From assembly GCA_034401795.1 (NCBI GenBank), contig CM067367.1, forward strand, positions 29,036,690 through 29,100,689: 64,000 nucleotides of DNA, given 5' to 3'. Below the pieces are notes generated by a model, which did not search any database, was not told the origin of the DNA, and saw only the letters and a program-made list of their open reading frames with translations. The position numbers and the translations under genes are program-made. This stretch comes from Chaetoderma sp. LZ-2023a (taxonomy: Eukaryota > Mollusca > Caudofoveata > Chaetodermatida > Chaetodermatidae). Of the stretch, positions 5,465 to 37,514 are shown piece after piece; position 1 is the stretch's first letter; every line of letters starts with the position of its first letter.

Positions 5465-5718
5465 GCTGAAATGTGTATTCAAACTTCAGCGCTGCTTGTC
5501 GCGTGTGATAATTAACTTTTAGACCACAGTCTGGTGGGACTTTGCTCGGTGCGCCGCAAGAGCTATGCGACGTATCCCGCACCATGTACCCAGTTATTGT
5601 ACATGCATAATTAATTATGACAGTAGCCCTCTCTGTTAATGGGCAACTTTCAACTTTCACACCGCCGTCGCCGGGTGGAAACTTTACAACAAACTGTTTA
5701 AATGTTTAAATCATGTAT
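5465..5718. repeat. Composite repeat segment B, copy 1
   Basis: This is the reverse complement of 36968-37220. It ends at the E1 insertion site, including GTAT 5715-5718. A minus-strand frame at 5328-5660 (110 codons) shares its first 60 or so codons with a plus-strand frame at 37026-37289. Several of the differences change amino acids, so the shared frame looks like repeat homology and not a conserved protein. Confidence 0.8.
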
Positions 5719-5723
5719 GTATA

Positions 5724-5866
5724 TTAACTACAAATTAACCTAGAACAAATTGCAACAGAATTTATTTCTTTTCTGCGGCATTCATGGGACTGCCAGGTGT
5801 CACATATCAAAAGTCCTCCAAAATCCCTCGATGGGAAAGTGGGTAAATTCGCATAGTTAGCTACCG
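5724..5866 (+). repeat. E1 left terminal inverted repeat
   Basis: It pairs with 10943-11094 in inverted orientation. Two perfectly matching blocks (5743-5763, 5802-5824) are followed by a weaker match through the GGGAAAG...GGTAAA stretch near 5837-5852. Divergence between blocks suggests an old element or weakly constrained spacers. Confidence 0.85.
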
Positions 5867-6187
5867 CCATTATCCGAATAATGAAACTTCCCTTACCTGC
5901 TTCATTCCGCAAATAAACGAAGTAGAAATGTTGTCTAAGCTCTGAATTTCATGGTCACGGAAGACAGTAAGCAATTGGCAATATTGCCTTGAACCACTTG
6001 TACAAATTCTCCAAACCACGGATTAAATATGAGTGTATGCACAGGGCCGGGGTAATTTAAAAAAATTATATTTAAAGTAAGTTTAATTTTGTTTTTCGCT
6101 TTTAAAATTTTATATAAAATAAATTGCATTTTAATTTTCACTTTTATCTCACAATTTGAATAAATTTCTATACAATTCAATCAGAAT

Positions 6188-8770
6188 ATGGACATGGATT
6201 TAGATACATGCGTTATTTGTAACCAGAGCCTAGAAAATGGCTCACAAACTGTTAAGCTTCGAGTTAAAGGCTGTGACGGTATTAACAATGCTAGCAGAGC
6301 CCGTGAAAGCGATGTCATAGCTGAAGTAGGACAGAGGGTTCATGTAAAATGTCGACGGGAGTTCATTGATCCCAAGCGGATTGCCCGTGACGCAGAGAAA
6401 ATTGAACAATCTCCGCCACCCATGCGAACACTCCGTTCAGAAAGTCCAACATTCAATTTTAGTGAACATTGTTTGCTATGCGGATACCCTGCAAAAATTC
6501 AAGATGGAAAGAAATGTGGCTATGATATTTATCCAGTAAGTACTCATGACTTTCAATGTAGTATCGCCGAGGCCTGTGAGCAGAGAAAAGACGAATGGGG
6601 CAAACTTGTAGCTGGGCGGCTTGCCTTCACGCCGGATTTATGCGTTGTCAATGCAGTATACCATCAAAGCTGCAGCGTAAATTTTCGAACCATGAAAAAT
6701 ATCCCTCAGCTGCACTCATCTTGCTCATCCCAAAAACATGGAAGGCCAGAAGACTTGGACAGAGTAAGAGCATTTAGTGCGACAATGGCATTTCTTGAAA
6801 ATAATGATGATGAGCAGCTGACCCTGCACGACCTCGTTAATAAAATGCAAGAGTATCTCGATGATAAAGAGAATAAAGCATACAGTACAAAATACATGCA
6901 GGATAAAATAAAAGATAATTATGGCGATGAAATATTTATTAGCACTGTGAATGGTAAGCCAAACGTTGTTACCTTTCGTTCTAAAGCATCTACTATTTTG
7001 ACTGACTTCTATAAGGAACAGAAGAGAAAGGATTCCAAATCAGAGAGCATGCTAATCATCCAGACAGCTGCCAAACTGCTTAGACACGATATTAAGTTAA
7101 TTGATTCATGCACATCATCTGAAAGCTATCCATCAAGGGAGCAAATGAGCGACCCAGTAAAGGCATTGAATTATTTACCAGAGACACTGCGGGAATTATT
7201 GCGGATTTTGTTTACTGGAAAAGACACAGAAATGAAACAGGCATCAGTTGGACAGGCTATTATGCAAGGAACTCGTCCTAGAGTTATTTTGGCACCTTTG
7301 CAGTTCGGGCTGTCATGTGAGATGCACCATAAATTTGGATCTAGATTTATTGTTGACACCTTGTACAAGCACGGATTTGGATGTTCATACGCGGAGATAC
7401 AGAGGTTTGAGCGCAGTGCATCACTTCATGGTGGAGATCTACCACAGCCATTATCAGGCGAGTTCATTCAGTTTGTTGCCGACAATGTGGATCACAATAT
7501 TTGCACAATAGATGGGCATAATACATTTCATGGAATGGGAATCATTGCATCTGTTACACCAGGAAACCTTTCGTGCAAACTTATTCCAAGGATAAATGTA
7601 ACATCTGAAGATATCAAGCAAGTTGGCAAGATCTGTATCAGGAACTTTGAGTCTCAGCATACCAGGAACTTCCCATTGACCTTTAAGGAGTTAACTGCGA
7701 TGGAACAAACAGACCCAACAGCTGACATTGACATCCTCTGGGATTTCTCTTTGTTTCTGCGTTCAAGGAGACAGTCATGGTCTGGCATGATGCAAACTGT
7801 TCACCAAGGAGTTTATCCAGGTAAATCGTCTGTTATTTTCCTTCCGATGATAGATCTAGAGCCAAGTAACATGACCTGCATCTTTTCCACTTTGACTTAT
7901 GTTTGTGAACAGGCAAACCGATACCATGTTGCATCCGTGATTACATTTGATCAGCCCTTATTTTGGAAAGCTATGACTATCATAGAGATTGAGCCGAGCT
8001 GGAGTCCATTAAAGCAAATTATTCTAAGACTCGGAGGTCTTCATATGGAGATGAGCTTCCTTGGCTGCATTGGTCACTTAATGGCAGGAAGCGGTCTTGC
8101 GCCTATTCTAGAGGTAGTCTACGCTGAGAATGCTGTCAAACACATTCTTAGTGGAAAGGCAATTTCTCGAGCAGTTCGAGGACACCTCATGGTTTTTGCT
8201 TCTCTCAGTACAATCTTGATTGCAAATGCATACAACCTACCACTACCTACAATTGCAGATGCTGAAGTTGACACAGTAGAATATTCCGCTGCAATGCATT
8301 CAAAAGAATTGTTTGACAATGATGATAATGTTGCAGGACATGAAACGATTGAAAGTTCCCTAAATAAAAGTCTGGTTAAAGTTGGAGAGCTCTATGATGA
8401 CATTATCAAAAATCCGTATGTAGCTACAAGATTGTCCTCGGAAAATGCATTACATGATGTCAAGGACAAACTAGACTCAGAGAAGGTGGTCATGAAAGAT
8501 AAGAGGACTGCACGACTCTGGCTTTTGTATATGGAGTTGGTTGACATTCTGCGCAAATTCATTAAGGCAGAACGAACTGGTGATTGGAACATGCACCTTC
8601 AGACCGTTCGTGAGATGCTTCCATATTTTGCAGCCGCTGGGCATAATCTGTACGCCAAGTCTGCATATGTATATTTACAAAAGATGTTAGAAATACCTGA
8701 AACTCATCCAGATATACACACCAGCTTCCTCAATGGTCATCATGTCATTCATCGAAGTGATAGGTATTAG
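6188..8770 (+). CDS. E1 ORF, N-terminal part: zinc-ribbon-like protein of the CXC/PIN family
   Basis: An 860-codon intronless frame. Two similar cysteine/histidine modules lie at the N-terminus: C8-x2-C11 with H52-x2-C55, and C95-x2-C98 with H159-x2-C162, likely zinc-binding. The remaining 690 residues are an alpha/beta region I cannot assign to a catalytic family. The start is the first ATG after an AT-rich leader with a TATATAAAA-like stretch near 6110. The frame ends at TAG 8768-8770. The next frame (8810-10642) is in the same phase, and the 13 codons between them are open, so the two are very probably one protein split by a point mutation (TAG is one change from TGG). Relatives with this overall layout occur as lineage-expanded uncharacterised proteins in aquatic invertebrates, as far as I recall. 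A nuclear, DNA-binding role in element mobility is inference. Confidence 0.8.
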   Translation: MDMDLDTCVICNQSLENGSQTVKLRVKGCDGINNASRARESDVIAEVGQRVHVKCRREFIDPKRIARDAEKIEQSPPPMRTLRSESPTFNFSEHCLLCGYPAKIQDGKKCGYDIYPVSTHDFQCSIAEACEQRKDEWGKLVAGRLAFTPDLCVVNAVYHQSCSVNFRTMKNIPQLHSSCSSQKHGRPEDLDRVRAFSATMAFLENNDDEQLTLHDLVNKMQEYLDDKENKAYSTKYMQDKIKDNYGDEIFISTVNGKPNVVTFRSKASTILTDFYKEQKRKDSKSESMLIIQTAAKLLRHDIKLIDSCTSSESYPSREQMSDPVKALNYLPETLRELLRILFTGKDTEMKQASVGQAIMQGTRPRVILAPLQFGLSCEMHHKFGSRFIVDTLYKHGFGCSYAEIQRFERSASLHGGDLPQPLSGEFIQFVADNVDHNICTIDGHNTFHGMGIIASVTPGNLSCKLIPRINVTSEDIKQVGKICIRNFESQHTRNFPLTFKELTAMEQTDPTADIDILWDFSLFLRSRRQSWSGMMQTVHQGVYPGKSSVIFLPMIDLEPSNMTCIFSTLTYVCEQANRYHVASVITFDQPLFWKAMTIIEIEPSWSPLKQIILRLGGLHMEMSFLGCIGHLMAGSGLAPILEVVYAENAVKHILSGKAISRAVRGHLMVFASLSTILIANAYNLPLPTIADAEVDTVEYSAAMHSKELFDNDDNVAGHETIESSLNKSLVKVGELYDDIIKNPYVATRLSSENALHDVKDKLDSEKVVMKDKRTARLWLLYMELVDILRKFIKAERTGDWNMHLQTVREMLPYFAAAGHNLYAKSAYVYLQKMLEIPETHPDIHTSFLNGHHVIHRSDRY

Positions 8771-8809
8771 GCAGGGTTATCTACTGATCTAGTTATTGAG
8801 CAGGTCCTT

Positions 8810-10642
8810 ATGAGAAGTGTAAAGTCAAGTGGTGGTCTAACACGAGGTCGTGGAATGACAGAACTTCAGCGTCTTGTTTGGTTGTTGTCTATGCCCGCAT
8901 GTGCAGATGTGTGTAATGCAATGCAAGAGCTCTCTGGGGTAAACTGTGATTCAAGTGAACAACACAAAGATTCCACACAATCTCGAATAAAGCGTGATAT
9001 GGATGATACTTACAAAATTCTCAAAATCCTTAGTGAACTGAATCCATTTGGACCAGACCCTTCTCTTAGAGGACTTGTTAGTGGATTGTCTGCACATGAA
9101 TCAGTCAATGTTGACGATGCTAAAGATATTGGAGAATCAATTATTAATTCGATGTGTGGCCAATGTGTATCAAGCATTTCGTTCCAGAGAAAGAGACAAG
9201 CTATTACCTTAGCATCCAAAACATCTCTCAAGATTGATGATGAATGTGTACAAATTGATCCACAACTCCTATTTCAAAGACTCAGTTTAATTGCTACAAA
9301 TGGATCAAAAGGGAATCCATCATCTTATTTTGAGTATGAGTTGTGCACTCATCCGCCCGCACTCTTTGATAATTCATCTCTTCCATGGGAAACAAATAAG
9401 CCGGCACTTGCTGATGCATTGTGGAAATTAATTCAAAATGAAGATGCAGTCCTTCCAGATTCTGTCCACTATGTGCTTGATGGAGGAGCTCTATTACACC
9501 GTGTTCCATGGCAGCGTGGAGAGACATTTGCAAATGTTTGTCAAAGATATGTAAAATATTGCATAAGCAAATATGGAAAGGCTACAGTAGTTTTTGATGG
9601 TTATGACCAAGGCGCAGACATAAAAGATGTAACACATAAGAGGCGAACTCGTGGATCAGGCGCAACTGTTGTACTGACTCCGCAAACAGTTGTAACTCTG
9701 AGTAAGCCTGATTTTCTTAGTAACAAGCAGAACAAACATCGGTTAATATCAATCTTAAGTTCATCTCTCGAACAGGCTGGATGCTTAACGATAAAGGCAA
9801 GCGGTGATGCTGATGTCTTAATTACGCAAACGGCTATCTTGGCTTCAAAGTCAACAAATACTGCTCTTGTTGGAGACGATACCGACCTACTGGTGTTGCT
9901 TCTATACCATACTGATATGAATGGCTGTCAGCTATTTTTCAGACCAGAGCCAAAGCAAAATGCAAAGAAACCCCGACTGTGGAATATCAAAATGGCAAAG
10001 GAAAAACTCGGGTTTTGTTTGTGCTCACAGCTGTTATTTATCCATGCTATCCTTGGCTGTGACTCAACATCTAGGCTTTATGGAATTGGAAAATCCGCAT
10101 CCCTTAGCAAAATCCAGTGCTGCAAAGAACTCTCTCAAATTGCTGAAGTGTTTACAATGAGTAATGCGAATAAAGATGACGTGATAAAAGCAGGTGAGAA
10201 GGCAATGCTTATTCTATACAATGGCACTTCAATGGATAGTCTAGTTGCTTTGCGGTACAAGCGATTCAGGGAGAAGGTTGCAAAAAGTTCCAAGTATGTT
10301 GAAGCACGAGATTTACCACCAACACCCGCATCCGCAAAGTTTCACAGTCTTCGCGTGTACTACCAAATTCAAGTTTGGAGAGGAGATGCTGGAGATATGG
10401 ATCCAACAGAATGGGGCTGGAAAGTTCTCAACCACCAAATGCTGCCTGTTAAGACTGACATGCTGGCAGCACCTGACGATTTCCTGTATTCATTTAGATG
10501 CAGCTGCAAAACTGGCTGTGAATCAAAGAGATGCACCTGTAGAAAACATGGGCTCAGCTGCACATCCGCCTGCGAAGACTGTAAGGGTCTCAGTTGCTCG
10601 AATTCAATAACGCTCATTGAGGAAGATGACTTGGATAATTGA
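8810..10642 (+). CDS. E1 ORF, C-terminal part: PIN/FEN-like core plus tesmin/TSO1-type CXC domain
   Basis: A 610-codon frame in phase with the preceding one. Its ATG is only the first Met after the TAG. A PIN/FEN-like core is suggested by spaced acidic motifs: VLDGG (D224), VVFDGYD (D263), GDADVLI (D333, D335), VGDDTDLLVLLLYH (D356, D357, D359) and HAILGCDSTSRLYGIGK (D418), the last resembling the GCD...GIG signature of flap-nuclease-type folds. Residues 564-597 form a CXC domain: C564-x-C566-x3-C570, C575-x-C577, C584-x3-C588-x2-C591, C596-x-N, the pattern of DNA-binding tesmin/TSO1 repeats, here a single repeat. The NVDDA motif near residue 100 recurs in the decayed relative at 50.1-50.4 kb. 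AATAAA at 10728-10733 lies 86 bases past the stop. Nuclease activity is untested inference. Confidence 0.82.
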   Translation: MRSVKSSGGLTRGRGMTELQRLVWLLSMPACADVCNAMQELSGVNCDSSEQHKDSTQSRIKRDMDDTYKILKILSELNPFGPDPSLRGLVSGLSAHESVNVDDAKDIGESIINSMCGQCVSSISFQRKRQAITLASKTSLKIDDECVQIDPQLLFQRLSLIATNGSKGNPSSYFEYELCTHPPALFDNSSLPWETNKPALADALWKLIQNEDAVLPDSVHYVLDGGALLHRVPWQRGETFANVCQRYVKYCISKYGKATVVFDGYDQGADIKDVTHKRRTRGSGATVVLTPQTVVTLSKPDFLSNKQNKHRLISILSSSLEQAGCLTIKASGDADVLITQTAILASKSTNTALVGDDTDLLVLLLYHTDMNGCQLFFRPEPKQNAKKPRLWNIKMAKEKLGFCLCSQLLFIHAILGCDSTSRLYGIGKSASLSKIQCCKELSQIAEVFTMSNANKDDVIKAGEKAMLILYNGTSMDSLVALRYKRFREKVAKSSKYVEARDLPPTPASAKFHSLRVYYQIQVWRGDAGDMDPTEWGWKVLNHQMLPVKTDMLAAPDDFLYSFRCSCKTGCESKRCTCRKHGLSCTSACEDCKGLSCSNSITLIEEDDLDN

Positions 10643-10727
10643 TGCAAGATGAAATTAGTAGAAACCAGGTAACTATGCAATACTATTTCATCTTAGCTTA
10701 GCTTAGAAACACACAATACCGTGACAT

Positions 10728-10733
10728 AATAAA
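10728..10733 (+). promoter_or_regulatory. Polyadenylation signal of the E1 gene
   Basis: A canonical AATAAA sits 86 bases after the stop codon of the E1 frame and inside the element. The position is normal for a pol II transcript, but the region is AT-rich, so chance occurrence is possible. Confidence 0.45.
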
Positions 10734-10942
10734 ATATAATATGTATTGTATCAATATCAATGATGGTATTAGGTAAATTCATGCAAGTGGCATAACACAA
10801 TACATTTAATTTGTGGAGAATATGTCAATCGTATTCATTTATTACTAAAAAAGTCCAAAAATACCCAGTCACACATATATTACATACCGGTTTTAAAGAA
10901 ATAAAGAAAAATGGATTTTTCAGGTGAAATGGCCCAAATCTG

Positions 10943-11094
10943 GTAATAATTATGCAAATTTTACCCTTTCCCCTATTGGAATTTTGGAGGACTTTTGATA
11001 TGTTGTACATGATGGCCCCCTATACACTGGGCGAGGTAAAAAAATTCTGTTGCAATTTGTTCCGGGTTAAAATATTTTTGGCCTAGATTGACTG
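10943..11094 (-). repeat. E1 right terminal inverted repeat
   Basis: Inverted partner of 5724-5866, with identical blocks at 11042-11062 and 10981-11003. The right terminus at 11099 is set by comparison with the empty site, not by TIR identity. Confidence 0.85.
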
Positions 11095-11099
11095 GACTA

Positions 11100-11445
11100 G
11101 TATCAGTTAAATGACTATCTAATGGACATCTTATTATCCATTCTTCTTCACCGTCATGAGAGTGTGCTGCATCAATAGTCTGCCTGCGGAAACCTGCTTG
11201 TGGAAATCTGCCTGTGGAAATCTTCCCTGCAGTAAAGATCATGCCATCTCGCGCTATTTTCATATTAGCGCATCAATTTCAGTGACTTATGAACTTTTAC
11301 CGTACGGATGACCAATAGGTACTCAAGTAGCTATACTATTGTATATTTCATTATTTCCGTATATGGTACTGATGCCTAATAGGTACCTTACCGGTCCTTC
11401 TTACCGCCATTTTATACTTTCTGTTTTATGTGAATATTATCCTTA
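11100..11445. repeat. Composite repeat segment C, copy 1
   Basis: This is the reverse complement of 36627-36971 with scattered substitutions. It includes an internal run of related short units (CCTGCGGAAA, CTTGTGGAAA, CCTGTGGAAA) near 11181-11225. It begins immediately after E1, with GTAT at 11100-11103. Confidence 0.8.
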
Positions 11446-11489
11446 TTTATTGTTGGTGCTCTCAACTAACAGCACCGTAAGGTCCTATG

Positions 11490-17199: not shown

Positions 17200-18582
17200 T
17201 ATATAAATGTGCCTGTCTGTTTAGCAGTATTTCCACCAGTGCCACTGTTGACACAGGAGAAAATCTTATGGGCCACCACACCACAGTTAGGGAACAAGAC
17301 CCACATAGCCATGCTGGAACCCAACCCTGAGTATATAATGACCTCATAATGCGCCAGTCCGCGAATGGTCGTGGACACCACCAACAAGGATCACATACCA
17401 TTTTGTGTATTCAATGGCACAACGGACCCAATGACTCTTGAACTGGGAGTTTGTTGTGGCCATCTGGTAGATGTGATATCACTGGAGACAACCCCTATTA
17501 CACCTACTTCAGCCACAAATTCTGATGATTTGCCAGAACGCATACATGACATATATCTGCGTGCCACAGTTGGAATGATGCAATCCCACAAGAAAGACAT
17601 ACGGAAAATACTATACAAATATCGCGATAGTTATGCAAATGTGCCGAGTAAACTGAGTTACCAGTGGAAAGGCCCCTATGTGGTGGTAGGTAAGAAGTCA
17701 GACGTCACCTACCGCATCCGTGCCTCGGATGGCCTGATCTCAGTCATCCACTTCGATCGACTTAGACCTTGTCTCAATGATGACCCAGTTCCAGAGCTCG
17801 GAATGGGTGTACCACGTGACACCAGTACCCAGACAGATGTCTCTACAGAAACAAGTATTCCTGACGTTAGTCCCGAGCACTGCGGTGGCTGTTCGACCCC
17901 TCTCCTACCAAGCCAGGAGTATGGTAAACATATGACTAATGCTGAGGACGATGACGAGATACGTACTCGCCTTCTCCATCCTCAGTGTGGGTCTACGAGA
18001 TCTCGGAAGTCGTATCTGAAGACTTTCTCGTTTGTACTGTCCAAGCGGAAGGACGGAAACGTTGATCCGCCGACTTCTTCCCATTTCCACCGACTTCATG
18101 CTATTCCCCCAATTATAGAGTTACCACAAGCGGAAGCTGAGGCTGCCATGGGCCATGCTTCTTGCAGGGTGGAACATGTAATAAATATCATGGAAGTGAA
18201 GAGGCTTGGTGAGGCCTTGGCTAGTTTTGAAGATCAGCAGAACCCCACAACTCGGTGTACCCCTCCATTACCGCAAATCGCAAGACCAATGCCTTTCCAA
18301 GGTGCATCCCATCCGTTAGCATCCCAACCTCCACTCCAACTCGCGTCCCTTGTCTACACAACAAGTTCGGACATCATCGGCCCTGTTCATTTCACATTCC
18401 ACTCATCGTCTGTTGACTGTCAATCTTCAGATATGAGAAAGTCCGCTGTTACAGAGGAGGTGGCATCCCGCACCACAGTAACCACGCCCACCCCTCTCCC
18501 CCCCCCACCCCACCCCCGCTGGTGGTGGGCAGTGAAGCAGCCTGTTCAGCAGACTCTCGGCTCGAATATTCCCAGTATTTAA
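17200..18582 (+). pseudogene. Ty3/gypsy pol remnant: pre-RT linker fused to integrase C-terminus
   Basis: The frame open from 17365 continues upstream through one stop to about 17200. It contains the protease-to-RT linker type (IAMLEPNPEY, then VVDTTNKDHIPFCVFNGTTD, then LPERIHDIYLRATVGM). It then passes directly, near 17645, to the end of integrase: SYQWKGPYVVVGKKSDVTYRI and VIHFDRLRP, a GPY/F-like module. All catalytic domains between are missing, so a clean internal deletion joined the two ends in frame. The last 250 codons, rich in Pro, Ser and Thr, resemble nothing I recognise. Confidence 0.7.
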
Positions 18583-23899: not shown

Positions 23900-24765
23900 C
23901 TACAGATCAAGTCTATTTGGAGGTTTCTTAATTCTAGCAGAACGCCGGAGTTCATTTTGGTCATCATGAACACCTGAATCAGTATAGGTGTCATCAGATA
24001 CATAAGTCTCTTCACGACGAATGGATTGAGTGTGATTAGTGTCAGTTAACAATAAGTCATTCAACTCACTTACCTCCGAGGGATCAGAAGCATTGTCCTC
24101 ATGGAATCTCGTGGAAGCTCAGATGGAGCTTCCCGAGACAAACACGGGATTTGTCCATTCACGCTACCACTGGGAGCAAGGTCCTTCGTAGAAACAGTTT
24201 TTTCATGTCCATTACACAGTCTGACATAAGCGTATTGATCAATTGCTTCCAATAGTTCAACTTCATCAACATATGGATCATATTTAGAGTTTCTAACAAA
24301 TCGTCGGAGCAGAACTGGACCTGCAGTAGTCAACGAAGCTGGAAGAGAGGCACCATTGCACGTATATCTAGGATATCTGAGCAAACAATCATGTGGTGAG
24401 TCATTGGTGGCAGTCGATATTAGTGAGCGAATCGAATGAAGAGTGACTGGCAGTACTTCCTCCCAACTTCCAGTTTCCAGGCCACATGAGTGTAGAGCTA
24501 ACTGAACGGCTTTCCAGATCACCCCCATTGACTCGTTCACATTGAGAGTTCCCTACTGGGTGGAATGGAGTGGTTCGACTAGTCTAGAAAATCCTTTACA
24601 CTAGAACTCATAAAGGCTGCACCTCTGTCTGAATGTATGAATTTTGGCATCCCAAAGACACTAAACAGATGTTTTAGGCTAGTAATCACACTCTTGCTAC
24701 TGACATCGGAACACAGGAATGCCCAAGGAAATCTACTAAATTCATCGACTACTGTCAAAATGTAT
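23900..24765 (-). pseudogene. Gypsy pol: integrase core, C-terminus and tail
   Basis: The minus strand from 24765 reads through TVVDEFSRFPWAF (first catalytic Asp), IHSDRGAAF (second Asp), a stop and a shift, then NESMGVIWKA (catalytic Glu). Next come a basic block and LLRRFVRNSKYDPYVDEVELLEA. The tail ends at 23900 with RRSARIKKPPNRLDL, a common pol C-terminus in these elements. The longest open part is 24070-24540. The enzyme would integrate element cDNA in the nucleus. Confidence 0.8.
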
Positions 24766-26460
24766 CAATTTCTCGATGATGGTAAGGGACCTTTGAAGTC
24801 TACATTAAATCTTTCAAAAGGCACTGTAGCTTTCACTAGATCTGAACGCAGTTTCTGAAATAATCTTGGCTTCAACAAACAGCATGACTTGCGTTCTAAG
24901 CACACTTTCCATACCTCTTCTGTCAAACATGGCATATTTTTACTACGAATATACTGAAGTAGGCGAGTGATGCCCGGATGACAAAGGTCATTGTGTAATT
25001 TGTGGAGCTTCTCCAATGAATGGTCCCGTGCGATACTCGCAGCGACACATGAGAGCGCATCAGCACTGGCATTGCAGATTCCTGGGCGAAATTGAATGTC
25101 ATAACTATAACAAGAAAGTTCTAATTTCCATCGCTCGATCTTGTCGTTCTTAATTTTACCCTTGGGGTTTTCATGGAAAATGAATGACACCGCTCTCTGA
25201 TCAGATATAGTATTGAAACGTCTCCCTACTAGGTAGAAGCTCCATCGTCTAATGGCTTCCACGATTGCATATGCTTCCTTCTCAATTGACGAATGGTTGC
25301 GTTCACTTGCAGTGAGTGTCCGAGAGAAGAATGCCACTGGACGACTGTTCTGATTTAAGACTGCAGCAATTGCAACATCAGACGCATCGGTTTCGATGGT
25401 GAAAGGTTGAGTTTCGCCAATAGATGCCATGACTGAATCTGCTGTTCCCTGTTTCAGTTTTTCAAAAGAGCTGATTTGGTTCGCGCTCATTGGAAATCGG
25501 TTTACAATAGTAAGCGGGCTGACCAAGGTAGAAATGTTACTTATCCACTTGGAATAATAAGCAAACATTCCCAGAGCACATGCTAGTTCAGACTTGCTTG
25601 ATGGCACAGGAAGATCTAGTAGTGGACGCATTCTTTCTGGGTCAAGATGAAGACGATCATGACTGATCTTGTAGCCCAGAAGATCTATCTCGGTTTTGGA
25701 AAACACAGACTTGTCATGATTGAATGACAAGTGATACTGTTCAGCCACACTTAGAAACTTCTGTAGTTCTCAATCGTGATCTGCCTGTTCATGACCGGCT
25801 ATTGTGATGTTGTCAACATAAGCAAAGGTTTGCTTTAAACCACTTTTCTCAAGAATCGAGTCCATCACATGTTGAAATGCAGCTACACCATTTGTAATAC
25901 CAAATGGGATTCGGCGATATTGATACAGTTTACCGTCAGCTTCGAATGCTGTGTACGGTTTTTTACTCAATGATTGGGATTTGGTTATATGCTTTGCGAA
26001 GGTCAAGTGTTGAGAACACTTTGAACCAAGCTAGATAATTTGCCATTGTATCAATGTGCGGCATCGAGTAAGTGTCACATTGTGTGAAACAATTAATGGT
26101 TCTAGAATAGTCGACTACCATACGCTCCTTACTGGAACTGTTCGCTGCTATTAGAACCTGTGCACGCCAAGGTGAATGACTTGGCTCGATTACACCCTCA
26201 GCTAAGTGACGAGACACCTCCGCATTGATAAACTTTTGGTTGCAGTCATTGAACTGTCGACATTTAGTGGCAATTGGTTTATAGTTGTCAGTGATATTCA
26301 GAAATATGGATTGTGGGTCAACCTTAGGGGTATATTCGGTTTCAATTTCACAAATAGTCAATTCTTTCTTAGAGCCCCCAAAGGAAAAATTCACAGATTG
26401 GTGCTTAGCCATAAAATCTCGACACAGGATGATATCTGTTACAAGGTTGTCAAGAATCAT
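24765..26460 (-). pseudogene. Gypsy pol: reverse transcriptase, RNase H and integrase zinc region
   Basis: The frame 26460-25963 carries the RT N-terminal motifs (SPWRAQVLIA, then FSTLDLRKAYNQIP). A frameshift leads into 26006-25770 with the YxDD-box region reading AYVDNITIAG. A single in-frame TGA (25770-25772) separates this from 25748-24765, which has DLLGYKIS, the RNase H stretch TIETDASDVAIAAVLNQ and IEKEAYAIVEAI, and then the H/C zinc region of integrase (LHNDLCHPG ... VCLERKSC). The box reads YVDN where YxDD is usual, which may be a lineage variant. Confidence 0.88.
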
Positions 26461-36615: not shown

Positions 36616-36626
36616 GAATTCAGGAT

Positions 36627-37220
36627 AAGGATAACATTCATATAAAATAGAAAGTATAAAACTGCAGTCAGAAGGACCGGTAAGGTACTTATTAGGCATC
36701 AGTACCATATATGGAAATAATGAAATATACAACAGTATCGCTACTTGAGTACCTATTGGTCATTGGTACGGTAAAAGTTCATAAGTCACTGAAATTGATG
36801 CGTTAATATGAAAATAGCGCGAGATGGCACAATCTTTAATGCAGGGAAGATTTTCGCAGGCAGGTCTCCGCAAGCAGGTTTCCGCAGGCAGACTATTGAT
36901 GCGGCACACTATCATGATGGAGAAGAAGAACGGATAATAAGATGTCAATTAGATAGTCATTTAACTGATACATGATTTAAACATTTAAACAGGTTGTTGT
37001 AAAGTTTCCGTCTGTCAACAGCAGTGTGAAAGTTGAAGCTTGCCCATTAACAGAGAGGGCTACTGTCATAATTAATTATGCATGTACAATAACTGGGTAC
37101 ATGGTGCGGAATACATCGCATAGCTCTTGCGGCGCACCGAGCAAAATCCCACCAGACTGTGGTCTAAAAGTTAATTATCACACGCGTCATGCAGCGCGGA
37201 AGTTTGAATCCACATTTCAG
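36627..37220. repeat. Inverted B-C block with the E1 empty site
   Basis: 36627-36971 is the reverse complement of segment C (11445-11100), and 36968-37220 is the reverse complement of segment B (5718-5465). They abut with no E1 between them, at ATAC 36968-36971 (GTAT on the other strand). Relative to segments A and D the block is inverted compared with copy 1. Confidence 0.85.
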
Positions 37221-37514
37221 CGTTTATTCTGGTTGCTCTATATATATATATGGGGTTTTAGTTATCCGGACTTAAATGACACTGGATGAATGATCGGGCT
37301 AAGTGTAGAGCAAATTTATGCGCCAACCTAGTTGTATCATATACAAAAGATTGCACATGGTAGATAGTGGTAAAAGGATAAACCCTCGGTAAAAAGATAA
37401 ACCATAAAAAGTATAAACATACAATTATAGTGTAACCATTTAAAGGACAACCATTCAGCTCTAAGTCACAATGTCTATGGAAGCCAAATTTAAAACACAA
37501 ATAAATTGGGCTAG

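Follow-up and report, generated by a model that had tools for sequence, protein, structure and literature searches.

A transposase-nuclease element of Chaetoderma is most likely a member of a recently amplified AcademX-type DNA transposon family

What kind of element interrupts a host repeat near the start of this stretch, and which enzyme moves it? The window is the whole 64,000-nucleotide stretch analysed, from Chaetoderma sp. LZ-2023a (assembly GCA_034401795.1, contig CM067367.1, positions 29,036,690 to 29,100,689), and the element, here called E1, occupies positions 5718-11099 (+ strand, 5382 bp). A previous sequence-only reading described a terminal inverted repeat (TIR) element with a PIN/FEN-like and CXC protein, which contained no DDE enzyme and resembled no described superfamily. 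Our comparison with other genomic copies and with related proteins indicates that E1 is a copy of a recently amplified Academ DNA transposon family, most likely AcademX, which moves by DDE-type, presumably cut-and-paste, transposition (probability about 0.87). The assignment is made because a DDE transposase with a nuclease, a 3-bp target duplication, TIRs and a length of 5.4 kb fit this group. The family is a new one of a known kind, recently active and compared with Academ by description only.

The evidence for mobility comes from the genome assembly holding the window (2.44 Gb). A search with the left 582 bp of E1 gives 40 matches, namely E1 and at least 39 others at 99% (40 of 962 candidates scored), and in all except E1 the match begins at query base 8 or 10. 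For comparison of their ends, 20 of these 39 loci were retrieved with flanks. All 20 start with TAGTCCAGTAA, in 19 of them AACTAC comes next, and the right end ...TTGACTGGACTA is kept in 18, being absent from L024 and L026. An exact 3-bp target duplication borders 17 of the 18 two-ended copies (L009 is without any), and the duplicated triplets are TAG, CTT, TTA, CTA, TAA, TAT, TCA, AAA and TAC. The 30-base flanks printed for the fetched copies are unlike between copies. Common ends in otherwise different flanks are thus observed, and two outcomes that had been named as speaking against a transposon, a lack of common ends and a single-copy gene, are contradicted by the shared ends and by the number of matches. 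The earlier view, that this is a TIR element which duplicates a short target and has clean empty sites, is supported by these copies and by the host-repeat loci described below.

The termini of E1 itself were set by the 20 genomic copies together with the empty site; the column majority of 19 copies gives a length of 5385. The terminal repeat reads TAGTCCAGT(A/C)AA, with TAGTCCAGT on the left in all 20 copies and its complement on the right in 18, one of which has a single change. The 3' terminus of E1, TTGACTGGACTA at 11088-11099, is intact and is the form kept by the 18 copies, L013 carrying the single change. The target-site duplication is GTA, at 5715-5717 and 11100-11102, and the window's empty repeat copy has GTA a single time. 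A 4-bp duplication GTAT and a 5' end at 5719, both proposed before, were rejected. Duplications of exactly 3 bp are the rule, being present in 17 of the 18 other two-ended copies, so the extra T next to the left GTA is read as belonging to the element, whose first base it forms, and the span becomes 5718-11099. The 5' terminus is damaged at 5718-5725, where E1 has TGTATATT instead of the TAGTCCAGTAA of the 20 other fetched copies. It continues with AACTAC, so that 8 bases stand in for the normal first 11. These 8 bases repeat the adjoining GTAT, and they could have been left by an abortive excision with insertion of filler DNA.

Two pairs of inverted blocks lie further inside, one of 21 bp at 5743-5763 (+) and 11042-11062 (-), the other of 23 bp at 5802-5824 (+) and 10981-11003 (-), and the blocks are 38 bases apart on either side. 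In 2000 single-base shuffles of the E1 ends (144 and 156 bases) an exact 12-mer common to both occurred four times and a match of 14 or more bases never. The blocks and their equal spacing, which had been noticed from the letters, are real, and shared words of this length are beyond the shuffle expectation. The blocks had been described as lying at the two ends; they are inverted repeats indeed, but subterminal ones, and the terminal repeat is separate.

The site without the element is also real. The host repeat around E1 covers 5465-5718 and 11100-11446, and a paralogous composite locus at 36625-37221 carries the empty site with a single GTA at 36969-36971 (-), within the 36968-36971 indicated earlier. 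The E1-bearing unit is inverted in this second locus relative to the shared outer flanks. The repeat is very common, with 2013 first-look candidates, of which 40 were scored and 30 fetched, among them the empty site of the window itself (L029). All 30 cross the site of E1 uninterrupted. GTA is intact there in 24 loci, has one base changed in five, and is affected by a 6-base deletion in L038. The query spanned the empty junction and uninterrupted copies rank first, so this shows that empty copies are common, and other filled ones may exist. One fetched transposon copy, L017, lies within a further copy of this host repeat, inserted at a different point. When its flanks are joined with one CTA, the resulting sequence aligns without interruption to empty copies (78-89% identity), among them window positions 5466-5653.

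Which protein does the element encode? A single long frame at 6188-10642 (+) has 1484 codons and encodes a transposase-nuclease protein whose intact homologue P0001 is 1484 aa long. The one 4.4-kb reading frame reported before is confirmed as a single frame, except that it holds an in-frame TAG at codon 861 (8768-8770). E1 differs from P0001 at 9 positions, one of which is this stop. The N-terminal region (6209-6673) is rich in Cys and His, with C8, C11, H52, C55, C95, C98, C130, H159 and C162 in conserved columns of an alignment of 30 rows, and is probably a zinc-binding, DNA-binding part. An RNase H-like DDE transposase region follows at 7205-8902. The N-terminal half best matches P-element transposase, with conserved D, D and E in fitting places: D432 (7481-7483) or D435, D588 (7949-7951) and E871 (8798-8800). 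The region also has a GxxH after beta 5 (residues 616-619) and a helical insertion. The earlier statement that no DDE enzyme is present does not hold against this match, and, as had been supposed, it is very likely this long protein that mobilizes the element.

The PIN/FEN-like part is likewise genuine. An XPG/FEN1/Exo1-type nuclease domain occupies 9395-10420 (+) and has the Exo1/FEN1 fold, with 11-17% identity to Exo1, FEN1 and XPG among the rows listed. The acids D1098, D1137, D1207, D1209, D1231, D1233 and D1292 are invariant or at least 90% conserved; they are equated with FEN1/Exo1 active-site residues partly by alignment and otherwise by the known FEN1 motifs. The domain thus shares the fold and the conserved metal-binding acids of Exo1, FEN1 and XPG, and differs from them by its fusion to a transposase. 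A C-terminal cysteine-rich CXC-like motif with conserved Cys columns ends the protein at 10499-10603 (+). The stop codon lies ten codons before the invariant E871; a truncated E1 product would still have the N-terminal parts and two Asp, but neither the nuclease nor the probable third catalytic residue.

At E ≤ 0.001 the protein family has 357 members, and 120 of them are listed. Among the matches listed the named sources include Porites, Mytilus, Pinctada, Mercenaria, Mizuhopecten, Patella and Elysia, and at least four rows are named Mytilus edulis. Pfam detects DUF6589 in 11 of 30 members (E ≤ 0.1; best E 3.5e-6, with 26.4 bits where the cut-off is 27), XPG_I in two, and eight further families in one member each. 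The DUF6589 match on P0030 covers residues 629-925, which suggests that this Pfam family overlaps the transposase part with the probable third catalytic residue. Three slices around the putative catalytic Glu gave a weak DUF6589 match in two and no P-type RNase H family. An NCBIfam search with three proteins gave nothing useful, and phmmer with the C-terminal half alone against PDB sequences returned just two unrelated weak matches. No relatives were found in viral contigs by protein, 23-base pattern and alignment searches, or in prokaryote genome contigs by alignment search. The relatives P0021, P0075 and P0081 are named Tesmin/TSO1-like CXC domain-containing proteins, and the present results suggest that some proteins with this name are transposases.

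The copies also record a young history. The 19 two-ended copies (E1 and 18 others) differ by 0.92% on average in pairwise comparison and carry 362 private and 16 shared variants. This low divergence with mostly private variants is the pattern of a recent burst. Two fetched copies have three differences each from the column majority. Within the frame, 276 nonsynonymous and 71 synonymous changes give a ratio of nonsynonymous to synonymous polymorphism (pN/pS) of 1.08; there is no constraint on the frame after insertion, as expected. Stop-free frames are found in 8 of 32 near-full-length genomic frames scored (the best 32 of 21609 candidates, frameshifts not excluded), and among ten near-full-length fetched copies a single one is open over all 1484 codons. 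Several of the fetched copies have arisen by internal deletion, and the deletion of L023 recurs in L027 at a different site, which suggests movement in trans. In L021 a segment of about 176 bp is directly duplicated within the element, at about 2054-2288 in element orientation. E1 itself is probably immobile, since the left 11 bases are lost and the stop precedes E871. A tblastn search of the window with P0001 (E ≤ 0.01) returned E1 and no degenerate copy elsewhere.

How does this element compare with known systems? We take the nuclease of AcademX to be of the XPG type. Excerpts of PMC10045372 give AcademX duplications of 3 or 4 bp and AcademH duplications of 9 or 10 bp, and tie them to the encoded nuclease or helicase. 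By this description E1 resembles AcademX, a nuclease-encoding transposon, in its 3-bp duplication, DDE-type transposase, accessory nuclease and TIRs. AcademH belongs to the same superfamily but encodes a helicase and makes the longer duplications; no helicase is among the ten Pfam families listed for the 30 members at E ≤ 0.1. The layout that was thought to be without a described superfamily is therefore that of Academ/AcademX (PMC10045372 and PMC10294476, in the portions available). According to the available portion of PMC10294476, bivalves have 100 curated Academ consensus elements with a mean of 5565 bp, and Academ is rare in other molluscs, whereas relatives of the E1 protein also occur in gastropods and corals. 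The available portions of PMC8290104, PMC3627910, PMC5753468, PMC9783078 and PMC10799480 add nothing further on AcademX, and our literature searches returned no paper linking Academ with XPG or DUF6589 with transposition, and none on a Muszewska/Academ catalytic triad.

Other DDE superfamilies fit less well. P-element duplications are 8 bp long, those of hAT are also 8 bp, and Kolobok targets TTAA, whereas the E1 family makes variable 3-bp duplications such as CTA, TTA, TAT and AAA. We know of no XPG nuclease in P-element or THAP9 transposases (PDB 6pe2, 6p5a). The GxxH of E1 also departs from the C/DxxH after beta 5 in P and hAT, as given in the accessible parts of PMC8230255 and PMC9587614. 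KolobokE, KolobokD and KolobokP resemble E1 as DDE transposons with an accessory nuclease, but their nucleases have other folds, PD-D/ExK, DEDDh and His-Me (PMC9587614, same parts). More generally, DDE transposons have acquired nucleases or helicases time and again.

The difference in the GxxH motif could be read as the mark of a new superfamily, related to P, hAT and Academ by fold only, which acquired its XPG nuclease on its own. It would agree with this that the likeness to Academ is one of described features, and that Pfam beyond single-member weak matches detects only DUF6589 and XPG_I. The duplication length, the nuclease fusion and the size, however, all agree with AcademX/Academ as described in the available parts of the literature, and we regard a new superfamily as improbable. 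Still less probable is a TIR element moved by its PIN/FEN-like nuclease without a DDE enzyme. The nuclease is real and its acidic residues are conserved, but the other half of the protein has the P-element match with its conserved D, D and E. Moreover, DDE integration typically leaves short duplications of constant length. Such duplications are also discussed in the available part of PMC10045372.

A host gene in a segmental duplication, with the apparent empty site made by a deletion between GTAT microhomologies, is the least credible reading and has almost no weight. In its favour, the direct repeat around E1, taken alone, is 4 bases long, and the element lies in a composite repeat that is duplicated. 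The shared left and right ends of the fetched copies at different sites are decisive against it together with the 3-bp duplications, and the pN/pS near 1 speaks against a maintained gene as well. With all 30 fetched repeat loci empty, even under a ranking that favours uninterrupted copies, no deletion is needed to explain the empty site, and the deletion reading of 36968-36971 was rejected.

For the preferred reading, an Academ-type DDE transposon, the observations to be explained are that many near-identical copies have the same ends at different sites, that 3-bp duplications border them, that clean empty sites exist, and that one deletion derivative occurs twice, at separate sites. The protein would act as a DDE transposase of RNase H fold joined to an XPG/FEN1/Exo1-type nuclease and a C-terminal Cys-rich motif. 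The zinc-binding N-terminal parts and the CXC tail may bind the ends and the target. The DDE site (D432 or D435, D588 and E871) would cut the 3' ends and attach these to phosphates of the target with a 3-bp stagger, and the nuclease may trim or cut the non-transferred 5' strand or the gap flaps, presumably in a cut-and-paste rather than another DDE pathway. More tentatively, and with low probability, the nuclease built into this P-element-like transposase might be a dedicated second-strand cutter or 5'-flap processor which sets the 3-bp stagger, with DUF6589 (PF20231) as a conserved core part of such transposases. The split between DDE site and nuclease would then be comparable to that between TnsB and TnsA in Tn7. 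The available parts of the literature establish no role for the Academ accessory nuclease. A young family with exact ends and target duplication makes this role testable in a cell-based transposition assay.

Elsewhere in the window, an open frame with a reverse-transcriptase RNase H domain lies at 24765-25748 (-) and one with an integrase p58 C-terminal domain at 17365-18582 (+). Both are probably retrotransposon remnants.
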